Below are positions 8,258-10,184 of a stretch of 39,189 nt of DNA, piece by piece. The translations under genes were made by a program, and so were the position numbers. The stretch comes from Mycoplasma elephantis ATCC 51980. GTDB taxonomy: Bacteria; Bacillota_I; Bacilli_A; Mycoplasmatales; Metamycoplasmataceae. Where the stretch lies: assembly GCF_000687815.1 (NCBI RefSeq), contig NZ_JHXU01000008.1, positions 1 through 39,189 on the forward strand, given 5' to 3'. The notes beneath the pieces were generated by a model. The model had not been told where the DNA came from, ran no database searches, and worked only from the letters and a program-made list of their open reading frames with translations. Position 1 is the first letter of the stretch. Each line of letters starts with the position of its first letter.

Positions 8258-9112
8258 TTACAATGTTTTGAGAACCCCATTTTCTAAATCATCTATTGAG
8301 TAAATATGTCTTACATTTAGAAATGTATTTTTTAAAATGTTTTTAGAACTAATTCATCCAATTCCATCAGTAAATCAAACAAACTTTATATTGCTTATAT
8401 TTTCATACTGTTTAGCTAATAATAAATACGACCTTGCAACCTCATTAGGTTTGGAACCTGGTTGTGAATAAAAATTACACTCACATACATATAAATTTTT
8501 AGAAGTTTTTATAGCAAAATCAAATCTTTTGTTAAAATCCAATTCTTTTTTATAATAATTTTCTTTATTATTAAATTTTTCAAATAATTTTATTAAATTT
8601 ATTTGCTTAAAATATGTTTGATCTTTAATAAAACCTGCTTTTTTAATATAGTCTTCTACTAAATCCTCCATTAATTTTCCTGTACGATTTTTTCTTGCAT
8701 TACTATTCAAACCTACCTCAACACCCAATAAATAATCAAATAGATTATTTATATTATGATTAAGTAATTTAAATAATCCGGTTTGTTCCATAAAATAAGT
8801 AAGCTCTTCAATACGTTTTTGACTCAAATTAAAATCATTGAAATCAAATTTAAAATTTATGCCAGATATATTTGTATTTCGCACAGCTAACAAACATGGT
8901 ATACATTTAATGATTCATGGTTTTTTCTTACATAAATTAACAAATTCCTCCTTAATTTTATTTTTACCAACTAATTTGCTTAATTCCATTATTTCTTTTT
9001 TTAATAATTTGAGTTTGTTGTATACAACTTTAAATTAAACAAAATATTTATAACTTGCAATACTTTCTTTCAATTTTAATATTCATTTTTCAAAATCTCG
9101 GTTGTTTATCAT
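8258..9112 (-). pseudogene. DpnII-type (GATC) restriction endonuclease with in-frame nonsense codon
   Basis: Read from ATG 9112, one base after the methylase stop, the frame gives a 284-codon protein interrupted by a TAA at 9035-9037 (codon 26). The frame is otherwise intact. Sequence on both sides of the TAA looks like the DpnII family: 'RDFEKWI' before it, 'GVEVGLNSNARKNRTG' and the PD-(D/E)xK-like 'RFDFAI...VCECNFYSQPGSK' after it. DpnII is about 288 aa. The nearest downstream ATG is 8989 (243 aa), with only a weak A/G-rich RBS; this would drop 41 residues but keep the catalytic core. So it is either a pseudogene or a truncated enzyme. Target GATC is inferred from the family. Confidence 0.85.
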
Positions 9113-9113
9113 T

Positions 9114-10118
9114 TTATGCATCCTCATTATAATTATAATTTGTAATTATAACTTCTTCAATTGCTCCTCGACCTTCACCATTACTATTAATCATTCGTCT
9201 AGCATGTACTATTTCTATTTTATATTCTTTATATAACTCACGAATTAAGGGAGTATTATGATTACTCAACATAACGTATACTCCTTTTTTATCCATTTCT
9301 TTAAATATTTTTGATAATTCTATTTGCCCTTCTTTTCCAAATGAATTTTTATTATAAGAGTCAAATGTTTTTTTGCTCTCTAAATTATCATATGGTGGAT
9401 CAAAATAAATAAAATCATTAGATTGTACGGAACTAAGTGATTTCGCAAAATTTTTTGTATAAAAAATATTTTTTGAATTTTTAAAATAAGTCAATAAATT
9501 CATAAAATTTTGAAAGTTAAATGAATTTATTTTTTTCTTTTTTCCGCTTGGTACATTAAAAAAACCTTTAGAATTAACGCGGTACATTCCATTAAAACAA
9601 GCTTTATTTAAATATATAAATCTAGCTGCAATTATATAATTTGGTAATTCAAAAAAATTAGATTCTTGATCCATTTTTCTTATATGTAAAAAATAATTCT
9701 CCGAATGATTTTTTTCATGTTCTTTTAAAGTATTAATTAAATTATTTATTGTTGTTTTATTTTTAAAACATTCAAATGTAATCATTAATTCTTTATTAAT
9801 GTCATTTATCACAAATTTTTTGGGTTGTAATTTAAAAAGTAAAGCACCTCCTCCGACAAATGGTTCAAAATATGTGCCATAATTTTTAGGTACTCTTTTA
9901 ACAATTTCGCTTAATAATTGTGTTTTCCCTCCGACTCATTTAACAAATGGATGAAGCACTAATAAATTATCATCAATAATAGCTTTTAATTTTCTTTGTA
10001 ATCCATTATATATTTTTCAAATTGTTAAAAATTGAACCCCCATAACTTGTCCTTGCTCTATTTCAGTTAGTTGTGTTCTTTCAATACCTACTTTTTTAGC
10101 CAATTCTTCCTGTGACAT
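9114..10118 (-). CDS. Dam-type GATC adenine-N6 methyltransferase with N-terminal HTH
   Basis: 334 aa from ATG 10118. The N-terminal ~25 residues ('MSQEELAKKVGIERTQL') are the recognition part of an XRE-type helix-turn-helix. Then comes a Dam/M.DpnII-like methylase: AdoMet motif 'KWVGGKTQLL', 'EPFVGGGALLF', 'NGMYRVN..GFFNVP', and catalytic 'DPPY' in 'FIYFDPPYDNL'. In-frame TGA=Trp codons occur in the AdoMet motif. The frame stays open upstream to ATG 10184 except for one TAG at 10122-10124, so the ancestral protein was probably 356 aa with a complete HTH. The stop-to-ATG distance of three bases would permit re-initiation. Paired with the GATC endonuclease downstream. Confidence 0.85.
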
Positions 10119-10121
10119 TCC

Positions 10122-10184
10122 CTATTCTTTTCGTAAGTTTTTTATATCACTACCAAGATCAGATAAGATTTGTTTTATATCCAT
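10122..10184 (-). pseudogene. Severed start of the HTH-methylase (20-codon leader ORF)
   Basis: ATG 10184 opens 20 codons ending '..SDIKNLRKE' and then TAG (10122-10124). In XRE domains this segment is helix 1, normally continued by a residue and 'GMSQEEL', which is exactly what follows the TAG in frame. It therefore looks like the original N-terminus cut by a nonsense change, perhaps now acting as a leader peptide. A TATAAT (10191-10196) lies six bases before this ATG. Confidence 0.7.

Follow-up and report, generated by a model that had tools for sequence, protein, structure and literature searches.

A GATC restriction–modification locus with one nonsense codon per gene, and a predicted methylase operator, in Mycoplasma elephantis

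We analysed a 39,189-nucleotide (nt) stretch of DNA from Mycoplasma elephantis ATCC 51980 (contig NZ_JHXU01000008.1, contig C8 of a 770-kb assembly in 25 contigs; hereafter the window), along with 140 kb of stretches from the same genome beyond it. The subject is a minus-strand GATC restriction–modification (R–M) locus, in which a Dam-type methylase fused to an N-terminal helix-turn-helix (HTH) is followed by a DpnII-type endonuclease, and in which each gene is interrupted by a single nonsense codon. We consider it probable that this was a functional type II GATC R–M operon until recently and that it is now being dismantled, with the endonuclease switched off and the methylase carrying its nonsense codon in the HTH. 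The likeliest state of the locus, as read from its sequence, would thus be one in which restriction is off, regulation is lost, and GATC methylation is perhaps kept.

One nonsense codon in each gene

Translation with table 4 (TGA is Trp in this mycoplasma genome, and the remaining in-frame stops under table 11 are TGA) leaves each frame with a single in-frame stop, TAG for the methylase and TAA for the endonuclease, as the initial annotation had claimed.

9114..10184, minus strand: methylase frame, HTH_3 plus MethyltransfD12 (Dam-type), with a single TAG inside (translation; profile matches)
10122..10124, minus strand: TAG, methylase codon 21, past HTH helix 1 (translation and alignment)
8258..9112, minus strand: DpnII/MboI-type endonuclease frame (PF04556), with a single TAA inside (translation; profile match)
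9035..9037, minus strand: TAA, endonuclease codon 26, within the conserved YYvDFdKv motif (translation and alignment)

Family sequence flanks both codons, which also upholds the claim that these are nonsense changes within recognisable genes. For the endonuclease, a genome search matched PF04556 straight through the stop (profile positions 2-277), and the stop column, a D/E/N/S/W position of the YYvDFdKv motif, holds a sense codon in 24/24 aligned family homologues. For the methylase, the TAG falls in the turn following HTH helix 1, at a column that is a sense codon in a sister species (G001) and in every other HTH-fused homologue; the HTH_3 match is truncated by the stop, while full HTH_3/HTH_19 is present in the sister species and in locus L063. 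The rest of the methylase is complete, with PF02086 (MethyltransfD12) matched at 1-253 of 253 positions (E 1.5e-59), the TIGR00571 dam profile matched at E 9e-78 (261.6 bits against a cut-off of 114.85), and the motifs FVGGG and DPPY legible in the translation. Both stops are confirmed as real nonsense changes within family-aligned sequence.

That the frames remain open and conserved on either side of each stop would also suit suppression or recoding, yet we hold read-through to be most improbable. Genes of the window ordinarily end in TAA or TAG (34/40 and 6/40 open frames, respectively), and housekeeping proteins have matching lengths in this genome and the sister species (rplS 118/118, trmD 224/224, cutC 223/223, nagA 385/383), such that general read-through is unsupported; moreover, two different stop codons would need recoding at one locus only. 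Nor is there support for a start lying downstream in all homologues, since homologues span the stops. Sequencing or assembly error, with one or both stops absent from the organism, would be compatible with a draft assembly and with coding sequence that is pristine except for two codons; however, it would require two independent substitution-type errors, both yielding in-frame stops within 1.1 kb, in a window whose other open frames look intact, and the sister locus is itself independently broken, making such an error unlikely. Finally, phase variation is frequent in mycoplasma R–M genes, as with the poly-GA tracts of the M. agalactiae mod genes (PMC9465063), and the two stops could represent one state of a reversible switch. 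Nevertheless, both lesions are of the substitution type, neither stop falls in a tandem repeat, and the surroundings of the locus contain no inverted repeat of at least 60 nt; we give a switch very little credence.

Recency of the damage and order of loss

Outside the stops, an audit of near-invariant sites found 57/59 kept in the methylase (2/59 depart) and all 28/28 kept in the endonuclease (0/28 depart). Against the sister species, the methylase has a nonsynonymous-to-synonymous rate ratio (dN/dS) of 0.126 over 288 codons, with neighbouring housekeeping genes at 0.09-0.34. This ratio, together with the near-complete retention of conserved sites, indicates that purifying selection acted during most of the divergence and that the lesions are young; both lesions are, on this sequence evidence, recent.

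The sister species keeps the same synteny (rplS, methylase, endonuclease, phosphotransferase system IIA, cutC, nagA). Its HTH is intact, a frameshift interrupts its methylase close to the C-terminus, and its endonuclease is down to short N- and C-terminal remnants. Breakage of the locus thus occurred independently in the two lineages. The suggestion in the initial annotation that the locus is decaying is thus strengthened by parallel, further-advanced decay in a close relative, which that annotation had missed. In a third species (G002), no copy of the locus was found after rplS, where unrelated genes stand instead.

Among 135 genomes of the family, DpnII matches were found in 37 and methylase matches in 59, with a methylase lacking an endonuclease being a common arrangement. 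By our reading of the search results, about 24 genomes (~2/3 of those bearing an endonuclease) have it uninterrupted, and an open methylase of the same family accompanies it in 23 of them, the remaining one being G119. The endonuclease is broken and the methylase open in three genomes (G023, G058, G083), and both genes are broken in five (G041, G057, G093, G095, and the sister species G001), whereas none of the 135 was found to combine an intact endonuclease with a broken cognate methylase next to it. Endonuclease-first loss is to be expected, because earlier loss of the methylase would expose the chromosome; the pattern is that of ordinary, endonuclease-first decay.

The same survey yielded several separate observations. 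In G119, the intact DpnII-type endonuclease (L016) adjoins a cytosine-5 (C5) methylase-like gene and another amino-methyltransferase-like gene, with no Dam-type methylase. In G041, an endonuclease with an in-frame TAG lies next to a frameshifted methylase (L019), constituting an independent double lesion. The R–M locus is present twice, as identically scoring copies, in two genomes: G114 (L006/L037), where both are on one strand, and G099 (L027/L057), where the strands are opposite; recent duplication or carriage by a repeated element is possible.

GATC sites persist in the window, as the initial annotation had noted, yet they are scarcer than expected (47 versus ~80 in shuffles). Genome observed/expected (O/E) ratios for GATC are 0.72 here, 0.73 in the sister species, and 0.95 in the species lacking the locus. 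GATC avoidance was considered as proof of past restriction and rejected as only suggestive, with CATG and GTAC being about equally low in this genome. In the sister species (L103-L109), AGCT (O/E 0.67) and CATG (O/E 0.52) are strongly depleted, which suggests other past or present restriction systems there.

Internal starts and the parts lost to each stop

Internal restarts had been proposed for both genes in the initial annotation. Of these, restart in the methylase is plausible, whereas that in the endonuclease is weak.

9114..10118, minus strand: possible methylase restart product of 334 amino acids, from an ATG 3 nt past the TAG, with the methyltransferase domain whole and the HTH minus helix 1
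10041..10043, minus strand: second internal methylase ATG, 78 nt downstream of the TAG, with AAGGA upstream at 6-nt spacing; its product would be HTH-less
8258..8989, minus strand: possible endonuclease restart product of 243 amino acids, without the first 41 residues and with no good Shine-Dalgarno sequence

The stop columns differ in homologue coverage: what is lost to the methylase stop is missing from many natural relatives too, and what is lost to the endonuclease stop is present in nearly all. About two-thirds of the aligned methylases lack an HTH and begin close to the catalytic domain, and pneumococcal DpnM (2dpm), whose match to the window methylase begins at residue 54, is likewise naturally HTH-less; methylase restart is plausible because of these HTH-less homologues and the ATGs at 10118 and 10043, the first of which has a TAG-GGA-ATG spacing that permits coupled reinitiation. 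A search of the genome for a further Dam relative came up empty at E <= 10; a type I-like N6 methylase lies elsewhere in it. We also tried a methylase tree as a means of counting HTH losses. The HTH label needs five changes, at least two of them forced, and the placement of the window methylase itself did not resolve; repeated gain or loss of the HTH across the tree is likely, but this is uninformative for the present locus.

With its N-terminal segment included, the endonuclease does not have an intact frame, owing to the TAA at codon 26. The product from ATG 8989 would match PF04556 at profile positions 39-277 (E 2e-75) and would retain the predicted catalytic residues, all of which fall downstream of this ATG; all the same, the segment it would lose is present in nearly every aligned homologue, and activity of such a product appears unlikely. 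A structure modelled through the stop (mean predicted local distance difference test score 72.7, predicted template-modelling [TM] score 0.57) was uninformative as to the role of the lost N-terminus. Foldseek returned weak matches for this model (top ones at TM <= 0.36, the best being BstEII), and a sequence search of solved structures found none matching the endonuclease.

Both genes might still be used through these internal starts, in which case initiation at ATG 10118 or 10043 would give an HTH-less methylase, initiation at ATG 8989 an N-truncated endonuclease, and the two together a working, unregulated R–M system. The otherwise pristine frames, the location of the endonuclease catalytic core, the suitability of TAG-GGA-ATG for coupled reinitiation, the AAGGA ahead of ATG 10043, and the commonness of HTH-less methylases would all agree with such a system. 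However, no endonuclease homologue starts as late as ATG 8989, the start context there is poor, and loss of the endonuclease in the sister species indicates that its function is dispensable in the genus. We therefore regard continued use of both genes as rather unlikely, and retain dismantling of the operon as the preferred explanation.

A predicted operator for the fused HTH, and comparison with known systems

A second point missed by the initial annotation, which had noted only the cut HTH, is that this domain is a probable regulator with a conserved predicted operator. The layout upstream of the methylase is, in order, as follows.

10260-10240 (10240..10260), detected on both strands: terminator-like hairpin in the interval between rplS and the methylase
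10223-10204 (10204..10223), minus strand: predicted operator TTGTATATATAAATAGACAA, a 20-bp dyad for the fused HTH (motif comparison)
10196-10191 (10191..10196), minus strand: predicted -10 box TATAAT, 6 nt ahead of ATG 10184; a leaderless mRNA is predicted, and the sister layout is the same

The hairpin between rplS and the methylase suggests that the locus has its own promoter. In HTH-fused methylases of this group, a dyad of consensus about WTGTGK-N8-MCACAW (20 bp) lies close upstream of the -10 box, and it is absent from HTH-less ones. In the discovery set drawn from the family (score >= 10), the dyad accompanies 10/14 HTH-fused versus 0/23 HTH-less methylases. The operator score, once fixed on that set, was applied to held-out loci in other families within the same class (score >= 9), where it gave 7/9 HTH-fused versus 1/25 HTH-less (Fisher 5e-5), these loci including near relatives and representing ~4-5 independent lineages. 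The dyad of the window is a variant copy (score 10/12, shuffle p 0.02), and the predicted operator of the sister species has perfect 7-bp arms. By analogy with M.SsoII and M.EcoRII, the fused HTH probably binds the predicted dyad and thereby represses the promoter of its own operon, and truncation past HTH helix 1 would probably abolish operator binding. In genome G033, the dyad operator also accompanies an HTH-Dam methylase that stands alone (L041), no DpnII endonuclease having been found there.

The dismantling that we favour would have proceeded as follows. An operon downstream of the rplS terminator, encoding the HTH-Dam methylase and then the DpnII-type endonuclease, would have worked until recently, when a nonsense codon switched the endonuclease off. 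The dead endonuclease would have freed the methylase from selection, and the methylase would then have acquired its own nonsense codon, located in the N-terminal HTH. Loss of the HTH autorepressor on the dyad would relieve repression, ATG 10118 (by reinitiation) or ATG 10043 (by initiation) would serve as the start of some HTH-less, DpnM-like methylase, and GATC methylation may thus outlast restriction for a while. More tentatively, and as a possibility that we hold to be somewhat less likely than not, the HTH nonsense codon may have turned an autorepressed methylase into an unregulated, active, HTH-less Dam through stop-and-restart (at TAG-GGA-ATG or from ATG 10043), a change that would be tolerated since the endonuclease is dead; the locus would then offer a snapshot of how a solitary GATC methylase originates from an R–M system, with the 20-bp operator marking an HTH-Dam autoregulatory family.

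Several considerations weigh against this account of dismantling. Either stop may be an assembly error or peculiar to one clone, and the pristine sequence outside the stops would also fit a locus still used through restart. The endonuclease-then-methylase order draws on other species and on the logic of R–M toxicity rather than on this strain. As for the operator, its consensus was initially drawn by eye, and 2/9 HTH-fused methylases fell below the cut among held-out loci already reduced by near relatedness to those few lineages.

R–M decay in mycoplasmas is already known, and the locus is ordinary in kind. It shares its methylase and endonuclease families and their adjacency with GATC systems of the DpnII/MboI type (DpnM plus DpnB; PF02086 plus PF04556), from which it differs in the N-terminal HTH fusion of the methylase, the lack of a second, DpnA-like methylase, and the nonsense codon in both genes. 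Closer in circumstance is dam2/DpnII of Metamycoplasma hominis, another mycoplasma GATC R–M system in decay, there at strain level, in which truncated dam2 goes with loss of the endonuclease gene and some truncated strains have residual methylation scores (PMC10305163). Decay in that species takes the form of 5'-end deletion or fragmentation of the methylase gene, as opposed to a point nonsense change in the HTH with the catalytic domain whole; the dam domain is reported from residue 2, and thus no fused HTH is present there (PMC10305163). In M. agalactiae PG2, the GATC methylase is a pseudogene (PMC9465063).

Autoregulation by an N-terminal HTH, through an operator overlapping the methylase's own promoter, is described for M.EcoRII, M.SsoII, M.Ecl18kI, and M.ScrFI (reviewed in PMC3874152). 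The M. elephantis locus has the N-terminal HTH fusion and promoter dyad in common with this group, but its methylase is a Dam-type adenine enzyme and its operator is predicted from sequence. The best-known members, M.SsoII, M.Ecl18kI, and M.EcoRII, are cytosine-5 methylases. With C-protein-controlled R–M systems, it has in common an HTH regulator and a dyad operator at the promoter, as well as a predicted leaderless start; unlike in those systems, the methylase itself carries the regulator, in place of a separate small gene. What would be new is the predicted autoregulation of an HTH-Dam methylase through a conserved dyad, along with the possible survival of methylation beyond both regulation and restriction. 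Because the damage is so young, a single strain allows tests of which gene was lost first, what becomes of methylation, and what the fused HTH does, and the conserved predicted operator offers a concrete, cheap handle on the autoregulation of HTH-Dam methylases throughout this bacterial class.

Apart from the R–M locus, both ends of the contig carry a 134-nt inverted repeat with 84% complementarity (255-388 and 38991-39124). It encodes related coiled-coil-like proteins, and the ends of the contig are thus probably occupied by members of a repeated gene family.
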